This document shows positions 1-30,730 of a stretch of 64,000 bases of DNA, piece after piece (positions within the stretch are counted from its first letter, which is position 1; each line of letters starts with the position of its first letter). Origin of the DNA: an uncultured Anaerolineae bacterium. Its GTDB lineage: Bacteria; Chloroflexota; Anaerolineae; CG2-30-64-16. Location of the stretch: positions 1 to 64,000 of the forward strand of contig CAKZKT010000130.1 in NCBI GenBank assembly GCA_937124585.1, read 5' to 3'. The notes below the pieces were generated by a model. The model ran no database searches. It was not told the origin of the DNA and saw only the letters and a list, made by a program, of their open reading frames with translations. The position numbers were made by a program, and so were the translations under genes.

Positions 1-9
1 GGTGATCGT

Positions 10-282
10 CTACTCTGTCGCGTCCAGCGCCAGCACAGTGCGATACAGCGCCTCGGCACCCAGGCGAATATCGTCTGCGGCGGTGAACTCGGCCGGGCTG
101 TGGCTGATGCCGTCCCGGCTGCGCACGAAGATCATGGCTGTATCCGTCACCGCAGCCATGATCTGTGCGTCGTGCCCGGCGCCGCTGGGCAGCCGGTGTG
201 CGGCCACGCCGACCCCCCCGATCGCCCGCACCACTGTCTCGACCATGTGCTGCGGCAACAGCACAGGCTTGTGGCGCGCCAT
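10..282 (-). pseudogene. C-terminal fragment of M20-family N-carbamoyl-amino-acid hydrolase / allantoate amidohydrolase
   Basis: SGAGHDAQIMAAVTDTAMIFVRSRDGISHSPAEF matches the family C-terminus; upstream codons (DHTTPRSPQVPLEE) do not continue the family, so about 300 N-terminal residues are absent. Confidence 0.7.
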
Positions 283-401
283 CTCCTCCAGCGGAACTTG
301 AGGTGATCTCGGTGTGGTGTGATCTCCTTTCGCGCCATGGGCCGGGGCGCACCGGGTGCAAGCCGGCTATGGCCGGCGTCATGCCTGGAGCGAGCAGCTG
401 T

Positions 402-932
402 TCAATCGTCGGTCGTCGGTTCATCCAGCCGGCCGGCGCGCAAGGCCTCGATGAAACGCCGGAAAAGGTCCTCCGGCACGCGGCCACGCGGGATGGCCAG
501 CCCGTACACGCCGTCCACTGCAATGAACGCATGATCAGGTGTGACCGTCACCGGGCCGATGCGCGACCACGGGATCAGGGTTTCTTTATCCGCCACCGTC
601 TGGCGCAGGCCGGCGGCGTTCAGTTGCAGCGTCCGTGGGGCAAACACGGCCGGGTTGAGCCGCGCGCGCACGATCTGGCGCAGGGTGCGGCCGGCCACCC
701 AGCGGTAGTAGAACGGGTACAGCCCGAAACAGAAGACCGCCAGGGCAGCCGAGTAAAGCGCTACCGCAGGCTTGTGAAAGGCGAAGTAGCTGACCAGGGC
801 CAGCAACCCGAAGAACAACAGCAGGCCATATCGTTGCAAGCGATAGCGGCGAAGCAGCGCGGGCGAATGCTCCATCTGGTATCGCGCCAGCGCCACGAGA
901 TCGGCTTCTGCGAGCGTGAATGCGAGTTTCAT
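402..932 (-). CDS. YcxB-like membrane protein
   Basis: 176 aa, two central TM segments, C-terminal LIPWSRIGPVTVTPDHAFIAV...AIPRGRVPEDLFRRFIEAL typical of YcxB-like proteins. Confidence 0.7.
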   Translation of the reverse strand: MKLAFTLAEADLVALARYQMEHSPALLRRYRLQRYGLLLFFGLLALVSYFAFHKPAVALYSAALAVFCFGLYPFYYRWVAGRTLRQIVRARLNPAVFAPRTLQLNAAGLRQTVADKETLIPWSRIGPVTVTPDHAFIAVDGVYGLAIPRGRVPEDLFRRFIEALRAGRLDEPTTDD

Positions 933-1069
933 GAGGCAGTAGGGTTTCCCCGGCGGGCAGGAATGACGATCAGGTCAAGTATAGCCGCACGGCACAGGTT
1001 GTCAAATCCGACGTTCGGCGATATCATGTTTCTCTCATGATTTCCTATCACCAGACAGGAGATGGCGCG

Positions 1070-1462
1070 ATGGCCAGAAAGATTACACCGTTTCTCATGT
1101 TCGATGGTTCGGCCGAAGAGGCGATGCGATTTTATGTCGGATTGTTTCGAAACGCCGAGATCGGCCAGGTCGTGCGGTACGGCCCCGATGAGCCGGGGAT
1201 GGCAGGCAAGGTCAAGCAGGCTGAGTTCACCCTGGCAGGCCAGAGATTTTTCTGCATTGACAGCCCGGTGCGACATGCATTCACGTTCACCCCTTCATTC
1301 TCGCTTTTCGTCGAGTGCGAAAGCGAGGAAGAACTGGACAGGCTGTTCGGCCAGCTGGCAGAAGGCGGCGAGGTCATGATGCCGCTGGACGACTACGGTT
1401 TTGGCAGGAAGTTCGGATGGGTGAACGATCGTTTTGGGGTGTCATGGCAGCTCAATGGATGA
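1070..1462 (+). CDS. VOC/PhnB-like glyoxalase-fold protein
   Basis: MARKITPFLMFDGSAEEAMRFYVGLF...QAEFTLAGQRFFCIDSP...FGWVNDRFGVSWQL. Confidence 0.85.
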   Translation: MARKITPFLMFDGSAEEAMRFYVGLFRNAEIGQVVRYGPDEPGMAGKVKQAEFTLAGQRFFCIDSPVRHAFTFTPSFSLFVECESEEELDRLFGQLAEGGEVMMPLDDYGFGRKFGWVNDRFGVSWQLNG

Positions 1463-20947: not shown

Positions 20948-20957
20948 CGCTAATCAG

Positions 20958-21029
20958 AGCGGGTAAGGGGATTCGAACCCCTGACATTCAGCTTGGGAAG
21001 CTGACGTTCTACCGCTGAACTATACCCGC
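20958..21029 (-). tRNA. tRNA-Gly(CCC)
   Basis: minus strand GCGGGTATAGTTCAGCGGTAGAACGTCAGCTTCCCAAGCTGAATGTCAGGGGTTCGAATCCCCTTACCCGCT; 7-bp acceptor stem, anticodon loop TTCCCAA. Confidence 0.95.
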
Positions 21030-24685: not shown

Positions 24686-25095
24686 CCGAGACTGCATTGT
24701 CGAGAATCCGCTTTCATCCGGCCATGCGCTGGGCAGCCGTCGTTGCGTGGATGGCCATTATCTTCGCGCTGTCGGCGCAGCCGGCGTTGCCCGACCTGAT
24801 GCCCGGACTGCCAAGGGCAGAGGAATTCGCCGGCCATCTGGCTGTCTATGCAGTTCTGGCCGTTTTGTTGTGGTGGGCGCTGGTTGGGACGACGGGCACC
24901 CGCTATCCGGCCACGTGGGCCCTGCTGCTCACCATGCTCTACGGTGTCAGCGACGAATTCCATCAGAGCTTTGTGCCGGGCCGTGTCGTGTCGGTCGAAG
25001 ACCTGTGGCTCGATCTGGTCGGCGCCGGACTGGCGCTGTTGGCCCTTTCTTGGGTGCGTGGCCGTCGGCTGCGCCGTCATATCGCCGAGCTGTGA
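24682..25095 (+). CDS. VanZ-like membrane protein
   Basis: WMAIIFALSAQP...HLAVYAVLAVLLWWAL...YGVSDEFHQSFVPGRVVSVEDLWLDLVGAGLA. Confidence 0.9.
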   Translation: MTETALSRIRFHPAMRWAAVVAWMAIIFALSAQPALPDLMPGLPRAEEFAGHLAVYAVLAVLLWWALVGTTGTRYPATWALLLTMLYGVSDEFHQSFVPGRVVSVEDLWLDLVGAGLALLALSWVRGRRLRRHIAEL

Positions 25096-25107
25096 GCGTA
25101 GCAAGCG

Positions 25108-25893
25108 TCAGAGCGCGCCGACGTCTGCTTCCCCGTTTGCACCCATCTCCTCTGCCGGACGTCGCGCTGCGGCCGGCATCGCTGCGAGGATGATTTCGCC
25201 GAAGAGGCGCTCCTGAGTGGCACATACCTCTCCGCGTTTGATCAGCTCGAGCACGGCCAACAGGGTGACGATGATCTCCACGCGCTGGCGGGCATCCTGG
25301 AGGAGCGAGCGAAAGGTGATGCTGCGGCCGTCGGCCAGGCGTTCGCGGATCAGCCCGATCTGATCGCGGATCGTCAGCGTGAACGGCACGACGACTCCGG
25401 GCGGGATCGGCGGCGGGGGCGGCAGGTTGACCAGGGCGCGCTGCGCAGCCGCGACCAGATCGGCCAGGGTGATGCTGCCCTCGGCCAGCCGCGTCGCGAT
25501 CTCCGGCGGGGGTGCCACGCGCGGATAGGTGTGCCAGCCGCGCTCCTCGATGGCGCGTAGCTGCTGCGCGACTTCTTTGAAGCGTTTGTATTCTTTGATC
25601 TGGCGCGCCAGCGCCTCGGCCGGATCTTCTTCCTCTTCCTCGTCTTCTGTCGGTGGCGCCGACGGCAACAAGATGCGCGATTTGATCCAGATCAGCCGCG
25701 CGGCCACCAGCAGGAAATCGGTCAGCAGGTCGGGCTGCAATTCCTCGATCTGGCGGATGTGCGCCAGGAATTGATCGGTGACGGCAGCGAGTGCGATCGC
25801 GCTGATGTCGAGCTTCTCGCGTTCGATCAGCTGGAGCAGCAGGTCGAGCGGTCCCTGGTAGACCGGCAGGTTCACCTCGTAGGTATCGGTCAT
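25108..25893 (-). CDS. scpA: segregation and condensation protein A
   Basis: YEVNLPVYQGPLDLLLQLIEREKLDISAIALAAVTDQFLAHI...TDFLLVAARLIWIKSRILLP. Confidence 0.93.
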   Translation of the reverse strand: MTDTYEVNLPVYQGPLDLLLQLIEREKLDISAIALAAVTDQFLAHIRQIEELQPDLLTDFLLVAARLIWIKSRILLPSAPPTEDEEEEEDPAEALARQIKEYKRFKEVAQQLRAIEERGWHTYPRVAPPPEIATRLAEGSITLADLVAAAQRALVNLPPPPPIPPGVVVPFTLTIRDQIGLIRERLADGRSITFRSLLQDARQRVEIIVTLLAVLELIKRGEVCATQERLFGEIILAAMPAAARRPAEEMGANGEADVGAL

Positions 25894-25912
25894 TGGCTGG
25901 CTGCGCGCCTCT

Positions 25913-28900
25913 CTAGACGGTGAGGGTTTGGAAACGCTGGCCGCGCTGCGCCAGCTCGTCCAGCATGCGTTTGGTGTCGGCGAAGTCGCGGCCGGCCAGG
26001 CGCTCGACCTTGCAGCCGGCATCACGCAGCATCTGCTCGACCTCGGTCGGCACGCCGGCCGGGCCGCCGACGATGGTGACGTATTCGGCGTGGCGGGCGT
26101 CTGCGGGTGAAAAGCCCAGGGTCGGCCGGAAGCGGGCCACGTAGTTGACGGCCGAATTGAAATCTTCGCGCGCCCAGTCGTCGGCGCGCTGCCAGAAGAG
26201 CATGTAGTGGCCGATCACTTTCGGCGCCGGTTTCAGTTCGCCGGCCAGAACCGAGCGCACGCGCTCGTGCAGCAGGAGTTTCCACTGTTTGCCGGTCAGC
26301 CAATCGTCGCCGGGGCATTCGGTCGGGTTCTGCGGATACTCCTTGTGGCCCATGATGTTGTCTACGGGGATGCGGAATCTGGAGGCCAGCCAGGCCGCGA
26401 GATGAGCCGTGCTCTGCAATTGTGCAGGCGTCGGGATGGCGCCGTTGCGGAAGTCGCCTTCGACGCAGATGCCGATGGTGTAGTCGTTCACGACGCCAGC
26501 ATGATAGGCGATCGTTTCGAGGCGGTTCACCTGATAGATCGTGCCGTCCGGTCCGATGCAGAAGTGGTAGCCGATGCCCGGCCAGTTGTTGGTGTTTACG
26601 TGGTAGCGCGCGATCGTCTCGACCGGGATGTTGGCCGGCGCGGCGCTGTGGTGGATGGTCAGGTGTGTGATGCGATCGAGTGCCCGCGTCTGATAGCGAT
26701 TGATGGCGTGTTTGGGCAGTTCGTTCGTCACGTCTTTGATGTTGGGCGTGGGCACGCTGTCGGCCGCAGGCGATGTGCCGCTTTGTGCTGCCTGGAGTTG
26801 GCGCTGGAGTTCGGCGATCGTCTGGTTCAGGTTGTTGATGCGCTGCGTGAGCGTGGCTTTCTCGGCGGTGAGCGTCTGTACCTGCTGGTTCAGGCGGGCC
26901 TTTTCCGCGTTCGCTTGTTGCAGTTGACCGGTCAAGGCCTGGATCTGCTGCTTGAGCTGGCCGACATCGCCGCTGCCCGCCTGGATCTCCGCCTGCAGCC
27001 GGTCGCGTTCCAGGATGAGCGCGCTGATATCGGCCTGGGCCTGGCTCAGCGCCTGTTGCAGCGGCTGCAGCTGCGCCTGCAATGTCGTCAGTTGTTGCGT
27101 CAGGGTCGCTTTCTCGTTGGTGAGGGCCTGTACCCGCTGCGTCAGAGTGGTCTTCTCGCCTGTCAGGGTCTGCACCTGCTGCGCCAGCGCGGCCTTCTCG
27201 TTGTTGGCCGCCTGAAGCTGTTGGCCGAGCGTTTGGATCTGCTGGTTGAGCTGGCTGACATTGGGCATCTGGCTGAGCTGTGTCCGCAGCTGGTCTCGCT
27301 CGGCGGTCAGGCTGTTGATGGTTGTCTGCGCCTGGCTCAGGGCCTGCTGGAGCTGTTTGACCTGGGCCTGCAGTGCCTGCAGGGCGGCGTTGTCTGCTGC
27401 GGGCGTCGCTCCTGGGCCGGCTGTTTTCTGCAGGTCGGCGATGCGGACGGTCAGCAGGCCCTTCCAGTTTTTGCCGGTGAGCCATTGCGCGCCCGGCGAC
27501 GTCGAGGTGATGAACTCGCTGACCCCTTTTACGGCCTCGATGGGCAGCTTGTATTCCTGCAGCAGCCAGGCGCACAGGCGAGCGGTCGCGTCGAGCTGGG
27601 CATCGTTCGGCGTCTGGGCGGTGAAATCGCCGGCAACCGCGATGTTGATGCCCTGCGCCAGCCATGGCTGCGTCACGTCCACGGTCTGATCCAGGGGGTT
27701 GGTCTGCTGGATCGTGCCGTCGGCAGTGATGAAGAAGTGATAGAGGATGGCGCCCCAGCGTCTGTGGTGGGCGGCGGCCAGCCTGTCGGCACCCACGCTT
27801 GAATCCACTGCGGTGTGGTTGATGACCAGCGCAGTGACCTGGTTTCCCGGTCGCGGCTTGAGGCTGCCGGCCGTGCGCGGCAACTGCTGCGTGATATCGC
27901 TAATGGTCGGCTTGGGGATCTTGGGCGCGCCGGCCGCGCGCAGTGCTGCGATTTCGGCCTCGAGGGCGGCATTGCGCTCCCGCAGACCGGCGAGCTGGCC
28001 GTTCAGGTCGCGCAGCTGGTTCTGCAGGGTGGCGATCTCGGCTTGCAGCGCGGTCACCTGGGCGCGCAGCGCGGCCGCTTCGCCGTCTGTGGCCGGAGCG
28101 CCGGGCTTGACGGCTGCGAGCTGGCGCTGCACGCGCTCCAGCAGCTGTGCTTTCCAGTTCTGCTCATTGAGCCATTGCTTGCCGGGCGAGCCCGTGACGA
28201 CCAGTTCCTGCGCGCCTTTGATGGTATCCAACGGCAAGCCATACGTGGCCAGCAGCCAGGCGCAGAGCGACGCCAGCGCGTTCATCTGTGCTTCGCCGGG
28301 CACTGTGTTGTCGAAGTTGCCGGCCACATACACGCTGATGCCGTTGTAGATCCAGGGCTGGTTCTGCGCCACGACTTCGTCAATGGGGTTGGTCTGCTGG
28401 ATCTCGCCGTCGCCGGTGATGAAGAACTGGGCGACGATGCCGGGCCAGCGTTGCATGTGCGCCTGCGCCACGCGCTCGGCGCCCACCTCTGGCCGGACGG
28501 CCGTGTGATTGATGACGATGTACTGGATGGCAGCGATGGGGCGACGGAAGAAGCCGGCCGGGTTGCGCGGCAGCAGGTTCGTGATGTCGTTGATCGGCGG
28601 CGCGCTCGGCCCGGCCCCGCCTCCGGCCTGCAAGAGCTTGATCTGCTGCTGCAGCAATGTCACCTGCTGCTGCAGCGCCGCAACTCGCTGGCGCAGGTCG
28701 GCGGCCTCTGCTCCGACCAGCCGCAGGCGCACCTGGCCGCTGCCTGCCGGATACTCCTCCATGACCAGACGCTGCCAGTCTTGCGTCTTCAGGCCGCTTT
28801 CGGGGTGCTTGTATTCGTCGCTGATCGGGTAGCCGGTGATGTCCACGCCGTACTTCTGGTAGAAGGTGGCGAAGGCGCCCTGGGCCTTCTTGCCGGTTTG

Positions 28901-29953
28901 CGGGAAGGTGATCTCTGCAGCCGGCGTCGGGGTGACCGGCTGCACCGGCGGCGTCGGTTGTTCGGGCTGCACCTGGATGTGCTTCTCCCAGTTGTAGCGA
29001 TGGGCCAGCGCCTGCTTGAAGTCCTCGATCACGCCGTTCTTGCCTTCGATGTACCAGCGGTCATAGCGAGGCCAGCGGTAGAGCAGTACGGCGCGAATTT
29101 TCTGGGTGCCGGGGGTCTTGTTCCAGGCGTCAATCTCGCCGTAGGCGCGCTGCACCCAGCCGTTGTTGTGATCCAGCCATGGATCATCCTGGTCGGTTTC
29201 GGTCAGATAAACCGGCAGCGAGCGCATGGTATTGGGGATGGCCTGCATGAAGTCCCGGTAGGCGCGGAAGTTGTACTGCCGGTTGCGGAAGCGGGCATCG
29301 CTCATCTTGTAGTCGTTGTAAATGAGCTCTGGATTGCTGCCGTGTGTGTAGGTGTGGATGGCAATCCCATCGCAGTTGGCCGGCCCCAGGATGGTCAGGA
29401 TGTCGGTGAGATATTTGCACCAGTCGCCGTTCGGGTTGCCGTCGTAGACGGTTTGAGCGTTCCAGGGCGCCACCGCGCCGACGATCACCTGGTCGTTTTG
29501 GTGGCCCGGAACCGCCTTGATGGCCGTGCGGCATTGGCGGTAGCAGTTGGCGTACATGCTCGGCGTGATCGTCTCGCCGGGGTTGACGAGCCGATCCCCT
29601 TCCATCTTCACCCCTGGCCGCTCGATCGGGTGGTTCATCTCGTTGCCGATGATCCAGATGTGCGCGCCCTTCGAGTTGCGCACGAAGTTGGCGCAACGTT
29701 TGGCGAAGTCGGGATAGCGACTGGCCGGCGGAATAGTGCCTTCGGGCGCGTAGCCGTTGTTCAGCCGCACGAGGATGCCGAAGCCTCGGTTCGACCACGG
29801 CGTGTAATCTCTGCCGCCCATGTCGTTGGGGTCGCAGCCGATCGCCTCGGTAAACAGGATCCAGCCGAAGATGCCCGCCTCGGCCATGATGTGTTCACCG
29901 CCTGGATCGTGGAAGCCGTAGAGATAGGGCGAATCATTGAGCGGTCGGGCCAT
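25913..29953 (-). CDS. multidomain protein: glycosidase-like N-terminus, coiled coils, three PGRP/amidase-2 domains, unassigned C-terminal domain
   Basis: IIGNEMNHPIERP near N-term; PGRP-like repeats YIVINHTAVRPEVGAERVAQAH, ALVINHTAVDSSVGADRLAAAH, HLTIHHSAAPANIPVETIARYH; long Q/L-rich coiled coil between repeats 2 and 3. Confidence 0.85.
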   Translation of the reverse strand: MARPLNDSPYLYGFHDPGGEHIMAEAGIFGWILFTEAIGCDPNDMGGRDYTPWSNRGFGILVRLNNGYAPEGTIPPASRYPDFAKRCANFVRNSKGAHIWIIGNEMNHPIERPGVKMEGDRLVNPGETITPSMYANCYRQCRTAIKAVPGHQNDQVIVGAVAPWNAQTVYDGNPNGDWCKYLTDILTILGPANCDGIAIHTYTHGSNPELIYNDYKMSDARFRNRQYNFRAYRDFMQAIPNTMRSLPVYLTETDQDDPWLDHNNGWVQRAYGEIDAWNKTPGTQKIRAVLLYRWPRYDRWYIEGKNGVIEDFKQALAHRYNWEKHIQVQPEQPTPPVQPVTPTPAAEITFPQTGKKAQGAFATFYQKYGVDITGYPISDEYKHPESGLKTQDWQRLVMEEYPAGSGQVRLRLVGAEAADLRQRVAALQQQVTLLQQQIKLLQAGGGAGPSAPPINDITNLLPRNPAGFFRRPIAAIQYIVINHTAVRPEVGAERVAQAHMQRWPGIVAQFFITGDGEIQQTNPIDEVVAQNQPWIYNGISVYVAGNFDNTVPGEAQMNALASLCAWLLATYGLPLDTIKGAQELVVTGSPGKQWLNEQNWKAQLLERVQRQLAAVKPGAPATDGEAAALRAQVTALQAEIATLQNQLRDLNGQLAGLRERNAALEAEIAALRAAGAPKIPKPTISDITQQLPRTAGSLKPRPGNQVTALVINHTAVDSSVGADRLAAAHHRRWGAILYHFFITADGTIQQTNPLDQTVDVTQPWLAQGINIAVAGDFTAQTPNDAQLDATARLCAWLLQEYKLPIEAVKGVSEFITSTSPGAQWLTGKNWKGLLTVRIADLQKTAGPGATPAADNAALQALQAQVKQLQQALSQAQTTINSLTAERDQLRTQLSQMPNVSQLNQQIQTLGQQLQAANNEKAALAQQVQTLTGEKTTLTQRVQALTNEKATLTQQLTTLQAQLQPLQQALSQAQADISALILERDRLQAEIQAGSGDVGQLKQQIQALTGQLQQANAEKARLNQQVQTLTAEKATLTQRINNLNQTIAELQRQLQAAQSGTSPAADSVPTPNIKDVTNELPKHAINRYQTRALDRITHLTIHHSAAPANIPVETIARYHVNTNNWPGIGYHFCIGPDGTIYQVNRLETIAYHAGVVNDYTIGICVEGDFRNGAIPTPAQLQSTAHLAAWLASRFRIPVDNIMGHKEYPQNPTECPGDDWLTGKQWKLLLHERVRSVLAGELKPAPKVIGHYMLFWQRADDWAREDFNSAVNYVARFRPTLGFSPADARHAEYVTIVGGPAGVPTEVEQMLRDAGCKVERLAGRDFADTKRMLDELAQRGQRFQTLTV

Positions 29954-30011
29954 TGCATTGCCTCGCAAAGCGCAGACGAATCAACATCGGGCCAACACGA
30001 ACAGCCCGTCT

Positions 30012-30040
30012 ATTATACTTAATACTGGACGGATTGTCTA
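30012..30040 (-). promoter_or_regulatory. sigma70-like promoter of the PGRP gene
   Basis: minus strand TAGACA-N17-TATAAT. Confidence 0.65.
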
Positions 30041-30072
30041 TAAGACCCCACAGGGTTTCGCATCCCATGGCC

Positions 30073-30111
30073 AAAAACAACGGGCGACGAGGGGGGACCC
30101 TCTCGTCGCCC
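30073..30111 (-). terminator. terminator downstream of iorB
   Basis: minus strand GGGCGACGAG-agggtccccc-CTCGTCGCCC-GTTGTTTTTGG. Confidence 0.85.
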
Positions 30112-30145
30112 AGCCCCATCCTTCCGATGGATTCGTTTGCGCTGC

Positions 30146-30730
30146 CTAGCCGACTTCCAGACTTCTGCCCAGCTCGAACGCGCGGCGGTTCAGCTCTCGA
30201 ACCTTCGGCGGGACGCGTTCCGCGATGGCGCGCAGCCAGATCTCGGCCGGGATCGCCACGAAGCGGGAGAGCGCACCCAGGAGGATGACGTTGGCGACGC
30301 GCGGGTTGCCCAGCCCGGCCGCCAGGCTGCCTGCCGATACGATCTGCACCTGGCCGGCGCGTTGCTGGAGCTGAGACATGATCTCGTCATCGGCGGGATA
30401 GGGCGTGCGCGATTCCATGGCCAGCGTGGGGATCGCTTCGTCGCTGACCACGGCCACACCATCGCGGTGCAGATAGTGCGCCCACCGGCATGCTTCCAGC
30501 TTCTCGAACGCCAGCAAATAGTCGGCTCCGCCCAGGGGAACCATCGGCGAGAAGACCTGGTCGGCCAGCCGCACGTGGCTGATCACACTGCCGCCGCGCT
30601 GTGCCATGCCATGCACGTCGGTCTTTTTCACGTCATAGCCGACGGCCATCCCGACCAGGCACAGGATGTCGCTGGACAGCACGATTCCCTGTCCGCCGAC
30701 TCCGGTTAGAACGAAGTTGAGTGGTTTCAT
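30146..30730 (-). CDS. iorB: indolepyruvate:ferredoxin oxidoreductase beta subunit
   Basis: NFVLTGVGGQGIVLSSDILCLVGMAVGYDVKKTDVHGMAQRGGSVISHVR. Confidence 0.93.
   Translation of the reverse strand: MKPLNFVLTGVGGQGIVLSSDILCLVGMAVGYDVKKTDVHGMAQRGGSVISHVRLADQVFSPMVPLGGADYLLAFEKLEACRWAHYLHRDGVAVVSDEAIPTLAMESRTPYPADDEIMSQLQQRAGQVQIVSAGSLAAGLGNPRVANVILLGALSRFVAIPAEIWLRAIAERVPPKVRELNRRAFELGRSLEVG

Follow-up and report, generated by a model that had tools for sequence, protein, structure and literature searches.

Two inactivated and one complete amidase repeat in a leaderless giant protein encoded next to scpA in an uncultured Anaerolineae bacterium

Analysis of the first 64,000 nucleotides of contig CAKZKT010000130.1 (assembly GCA_937124585.1, an uncultured Anaerolineae bacterium), here called the window, revealed a gene on the reverse strand for a giant protein that combines a glycosidase-like domain, three repeats of the Amidase_2 or peptidoglycan recognition protein (PGRP) family, coiled coils and a C-terminal domain resembling the CWB2 domain of Clostridioides difficile (Table 1). 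The host genome measures 4.83 Mb and is 99.8% complete. Two of the three repeats have lost all their zinc ligands, and comparison with homologous proteins gives good support to the view that these inactivated amidase repeats are retained as modules. Directly behind the gene lies scpA, which encodes the SMC-associated kleisin. The more likely start codon of the giant gene is ATG at 29953 (MARPLND; 1346 amino acids), with TTG at 29968 (1351 amino acids) also possible; the residue numbering used throughout counts the TTG codon as residue 1.

Table 1. Features of the giant gene and its surroundings in the window (ORF, open reading frame)
Feature	Position	Residues	Strand	Basis or remarks
Giant protein gene	ORF 25913-29968; likely gene 25913..29953		-	ORF and start-codon analysis
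Promoter-like site	30012..30040		-	TAGACA-17-TATAAT, 11/12; about 60 nt upstream of the giant-gene ATG
Clan GH-A type TIM-barrel domain	28973..29953	6-332	-	AlphaFold2 and Foldseek; N109-E110, T256-E257
Small LGFP-like domain	28679..28909	354-430	-	Relatives conserve it; Pfam gave nothing significant
Amidase_2 repeat 1, dead	28127..28573	466-614	-	Ligand positions N487, A586, S594
Coiled coil, repeat 1 to repeat 2	27929..28087	628-680	-	
Amidase_2 repeat 2, dead	27437..27883	696-844	-	Ligand positions N717, V816, S824
Long coiled coil, repeat 2 to repeat 3	26777..27400	857-1064	-	
Amidase_2 repeat 3, complete zinc site	26255..26719	1084-1238	-	H1106, H1208, C1218, with Y1134
CWB2-like domain	25916..26239	1244-1351	-	Profile search, AlphaFold2, Foldseek
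scpA (SMC-kleisin, PF02616)	25108..25893		-	19 nt behind the giant gene, same strand

All three repeats exceed the Pfam cut-off of 26 bits for Amidase_2 (PF01510), with scores of 52.8 for repeat 1 (28211-28531), 61.6 for repeat 2 (27530-27847) and 100.6 bits for repeat 3 (26306-26674). They lie close to where an earlier note, made by a model from the sequence alone, had placed three such repeats, and they are the sole Amidase_2 matches in the whole host genome. Zinc ligands were assigned by alignment to the Ts2631 endolysin (PDB 6fhg), in which His30, His131 and Cys139 form the zinc site together with Tyr58. The equivalent residues of repeat 3 are H1106 (the first His of TIHHSA), H1208 (in GHKEY), C1218 (in TECPG) and Y1134. 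The note had recognized the first and the last ligand correctly, whereas the His of IAYHAG, which it took for the second, is rejected by the alignment in favor of H1208. Its statement that repeats 1 and 2 have lost catalytic ligands turned out to be too cautious, as all three are gone in each (N/A/S and N/V/S). The second His and the Cys are indeed replaced (A586/S594 and V816/S824), but the VINHTAV motif, which the note regarded as kept, has Asn in place of the ligand His (N487, N717) and preserves just the adjacent His. Binding of zinc through other residues of repeats 1 and 2 is disfavored by the alignment, where the ligand columns are lost jointly and no substitute in the form of another conserved His or Cys was seen.

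When 60 related genomes were searched for the glycoside hydrolase (GH) domain of the giant protein, it was present in 36. The domain also recurs in named metagenome-assembled genomes of Chloroflexota (Anaerolineae, Caldilineae, Litorilinea), and in a sample of 301 genomes from the phylum strong matches were restricted to the same class. In most close homologues the domains follow one order, namely GH, (LGFP-like), repeat 1, repeat 2, coil, repeat 3 and C-terminal domain. Ligand positions were counted in 45 distinct complete three-repeat proteins, hence 90 dead repeats, and the order dead, dead, HHC was found in all 45. Among the dead repeats neither the H1208 nor the C1218 position is ever kept (0/90 each) and the H1106 position is kept in 11/90, with Ser standing in place of the ligand Cys in 88/90. 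The second His of the HHT motif (H1107, 88/90), the following Thr (T1108, 85/90) and E1210 (87/90) are nearly always present. The dead repeats are under purifying selection: their ratio of nonsynonymous to synonymous differences (pN/pS), 0.00-0.54, is similar to that of the live repeat, although these are rough values with synonymous divergence (dS) near saturation in some pairs. Conservation in the 45 homologues together with the pN/pS values rules out chance similarity or decay of repeats 1 and 2. A quickly built repeat tree, with SH-like approximate likelihood ratio tests (SH-aLRT) as the only support, groups repeats 1 and 2 together (95) and the live repeats apart (96). Since repeats 1 and 2 fall on one side of this tree and the live repeats on another, ligand loss probably predates the duplication that gave rise to the two dead copies. 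Another type of dead repeat (HRS) stands as a group of its own in the same tree. Three loci (L101 4886-6958, L118 2873-5209 and L126 3363-5390) have a giant gene with two repeats followed by another gene, whose one amidase is dead (of the HRS type on the L101 contig).

Most PGRPs bind without cutting, owing to changes such as Cys/Ser and His/Ile. For Ts2631, the residues His31 and Thr32, which match H1107 and T1108, were proposed to bind substrate, and binding does not depend critically on its active-site residues. Repeats 1 and 2 combine ligand loss with kept binding-groove residues in the same way as non-catalytic PGRPs, and by sequence they are predicted binders. The dead copies very probably have a real role, because the layout, the absent export signal and the scpA gene behind recur across the class; gripping of the wall is the most likely one. 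Thus, the earlier proposal of binding modules derived from dead amidases stands as far as their retention as modules is concerned (layout in 45/45, groove residues, pN/pS), and peptidoglycan binding itself is a prediction. One scpA-linked protein (G011, L056 2522-5101, + strand) has a single amidase domain which is dead (S/K/S); what has been retained there seems to be binding, not cutting.

The N-terminal domain, described in the note as glycosidase-like, was confirmed as such by an AlphaFold2 model with a predicted local distance difference test (pLDDT) score of 96, for which Foldseek returned clan GH-A enzymes (best E 4.8e-7, template modeling (TM) scores about 0.45-0.60). As in clan GH-A, the TIM barrel carries two catalytic-type Glu residues, located in the motifs N109-E110 (kept in 40/41) and T256-E257 (39/41) and predicted to serve as acid/base and nucleophile. 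No family in Pfam or PHROG matched this domain, and a profile search of the PDB gave nothing significant. Relatives of the domain are fused to M23, GH25, C39-like, SH3, Ig and F5/8 domains. One of them (L060 69-2807, - strand) is leaderless and has a GH25 lysozyme domain from residue 8, plus GH-A-like, F5/8 and Ig domains; in L094, L103, L127 and L153 a GH-domain gene without amidase repeat (with M23 in L094) stands directly before a three-amidase gene. The long coiled coils noted earlier are present, and matches to SMC, Filament and the like in Pfam/NCBIfam were dismissed as coiled-coil artefacts.

The C-terminal domain had been left unassigned, but it resembles the CWB2 domain of C. difficile by both profile and fold. 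Profile matches include Cwp8 (6e-14) and SlpA (about 1e-10) and are limited to the C-terminal half of the domain. With the AlphaFold2 model (pLDDT 93), Foldseek gave query-based TM scores (TMq) of 0.54-0.66 at a probability of about 1 and E values of 0.015-0.03, with 7acx_B (0.66) and Cwp8 (0.62) among the matches. The PF04122 (CWB2) model matched neither the domain nor anything else in the genome, the P[ILV][ILV][LV] (PILL) motif is absent and the domain occurs as a single copy; anchoring by CWB2 in C. difficile needs three. We therefore describe the domain as resembling CWB2 and do not claim membership. Its identification as DUF2325 (E 0.29) was not significant and was discarded.

In most of about 20 other ORFs examined, the same domain is found at, or a few residues from, the C-terminus, and many of these proteins start TIM-barrel-like and without an N-terminal hydrophobic segment. 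The host genome encodes a second protein that ends in this way (G000:C107:7124-7381, - strand; L233 510-3839; ORF of 1110 amino acids), again with a TIM-barrel-like start and no signal peptide by hydropathy; proteins like it occur in many relatives, where the next gene often encodes about 450 amino acids with the same end. The recurrent terminal position and the second host protein would suit a sorting or docking tag by which a whole set of leaderless Anaerolineae glycosidase proteins, the giant protein among them, uses an unrecognized, Sec-independent export route. However, the picture would be the same if the domain anchored released proteins at their C-terminus, signal peptides were judged by hydropathy and upstream room, and no linked transporter turned up, no search aimed at one having been made. 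We regard such a route as unlikely.

Signal peptides were assessed from hydropathy and from the room upstream of the GH domain rather than with SignalP. By hydropathy, neither the giant protein, as stated in the earlier note, nor any homologue has a signal peptide or membrane segment. At most 20 codons separate the preceding stop from the GH domain in 28 of 44 proteins, and a signal peptide masked by a wrong start was rejected because this stop lies so close to the GH domain in many homologues. Mur ligases, which make peptidoglycan precursors, are encoded in the host genome. The lack of a leader is compatible with delayed or lytic release, as for LytA, with a cytoplasmic role, as for CwlM, and with unusual export. 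Of the wall machine with an unusual export route that the note had envisaged, the link to the wall is strengthened by the CWB2-like end and by the fusion of GH relatives to M23 and GH25, while the export route is one of several options that fit. Leaderless wall hydrolase domains are also typical of endolysins, and one dead repeat matches PHROG endolysin families, as would be expected of an endolysin or autolysin that serves lysis only (prophage-like or programmed) and uses the dead repeats as wall-binding domains. Yet no PHROG matches the GH or the C-terminal domain, for which reason a phage origin was rejected, and the locus is chromosomal, beside scpA, and conserved in many families, so that this explanation is very improbable.

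The most informative context, missed by the earlier note, is the conserved scpA neighbor. The count covered 39 three-repeat proteins that have the C-terminal domain and whose genes are followed by over 600 nt of sequence; scpA lies directly downstream in 37 of them, most often about 39 nt after the end of the ORF. An Amidase_2 protein is encoded just upstream of scpA in 20 of the 53 relatives' genomes with a detected scpA, representing 14 families; other relatives have unrelated genes before scpA. The scpA-linked proteins include variants with a different GH-A-like N-terminus (L196, L208; read as GH-A by eye from their NEPN and ITE motifs), a short form consisting of coil, amidase and C-terminal domain (L192) and the L056 form with only a dead amidase. 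A scan of 24900-30300 found a single promoter-like site, that upstream of the giant gene (0.6 expected by chance), and none between the giant gene and scpA. Taken alone, one 11/12 match is weak evidence for a promoter; the two genes are probably expressed from one promoter. Elsewhere in the window, a tRNA-Gly (CCC) gene is located at 20957-21029 (- strand).

The operon-like arrangement with cytoplasmic ScpA is also what one would expect of a cytoplasmic factor that acts on peptidoglycan precursors or recycled muropeptides by sensing or trimming them (compare CwlM and AmpD), with the scpA operon linking wall metabolism to segregation. This main rival gains from the finding that no homologue has either a signal peptide or a membrane segment, while most M23 proteins and the best Amidase_3 protein of the host carry hydrophobic N-terminal segments; it also gains from the precedent of CwlM, an amidase homologue that resides in the cytoplasm and has a role other than catalysis, and from the lineage that keeps only a dead repeat. 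It sits less well with three features typical of enzymes that face the wall: the CWB2-like C-terminus, the fusion of relatives to M23, GH25 and F5/8-type carbohydrate-binding domains, and a zinc site of the T7/PGRP HHC type instead of an altered AmpD site. On balance it appears somewhat unlikely.

The explanation we prefer, with moderate confidence, is a leaderless wall-binding amidase/glycosidase that is expressed with scpA and acts probably at division or autolysis. The Amidase_2 domain of repeat 3 would cleave the MurNAc-L-Ala bond and the GH-A domain a wall or sheath glycan, while repeats 1 and 2, presumably free of zinc, would grip peptidoglycan like non-catalytic PGRPs. The CWB2-like C-terminus may add a contact to a wall polymer, and the coiled coils may space or multimerize the modules. 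Co-production with ScpA, probably from one promoter, would let supply track chromosome segregation and division; the target would most likely be the wall at the division site or of dying cells, reached without Sec as in the case of pneumococcal LytA. Several points weigh against this explanation. Lacking a leader, the protein might remain cytoplasmic, neighboring genes need not share a function, and the envelopes of Anaerolineae are poorly known. Moreover, the CWB2 match covers the C-terminal half of a single-copy domain with no Pfam match and Foldseek E values above 0.001, and in the L056 lineage, where the only repeat is dead, catalysis is dispensable. A more far-reaching proposal, decidedly doubtful, is that Anaerolineae export or anchor giant glycosidase proteins by a leaderless route for which the CWB2-like domain serves as address tag. 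The giant protein would be the member with a live amidase and dead grippers, coupled through its operon to ScpA, a subunit of condensin, with wall splitting thereby following chromosome segregation.

The domains themselves are known or nearly so. In the papers searched we found no description of the fixed dead-dead-live array, the scpA link or the leaderless set, and none that dealt with these proteins or with an association of scpA and wall genes in Chloroflexota. PGRP domains without catalytic activity are familiar mainly from animal immunity; in the present case a bacterial lineage has fixed a dead-dead-live array within a single protein, with the same Cys-to-Ser change, and offers a natural test of the conversion of an amidase into a binder. 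The conserved scpA neighborhood suggests that chromosome segregation and wall cutting are directly linked in a class where cell division has received almost no study. With an entire set of wall-type proteins being leaderless, one may ask by what path, if any, they leave the cell.

Similar to eukaryotic PGRPs and the Amidase_2 enzymes of the T7-lysozyme/Ts2631 type, the repeats belong to one domain family, with an HHC zinc site plus Tyr in repeat 3; repeats 1 and 2 resemble non-catalytic PGRPs in the change of Cys to Ser and in the retained second His and Thr of HHT. Unlike those proteins, the giant protein is bacterial and leaderless and has dead and live copies in fixed order together with a glycosidase domain and a CWB2-like end. 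The GH domain shares the TIM-barrel fold and the two conserved Glu motifs with the clan GH-A glycosidases GH128, GH26, GH44 and PslG, at an identity of only about 9-15% and TM scores of 0.45-0.60, and it lacks a Pfam family. The C-terminal domain matches the C. difficile CWB2 proteins SlpA, Cwp8 and Cwp6 by profile and fold, and Cwp6 is also named an amidase; unlike these, the giant protein has one copy instead of three, no PILL motif, no signal peptide and no PF04122 match. Mycobacterial CwlM, whose enzyme activity is not essential, offers a comparison as a cytoplasmic amidase homologue, but it is a different protein, and the giant protein keeps one full site and has extra wall-type domains. 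Pneumococcal LytA is leaderless and septal, and as an amidase autolysin with wall-binding parts that is associated with the division site it is similar to what we propose for the giant protein, whereas its wall binding proceeds through choline-binding repeats. We know of no dead amidase copies, glycosidase domain or scpA link in LytA.

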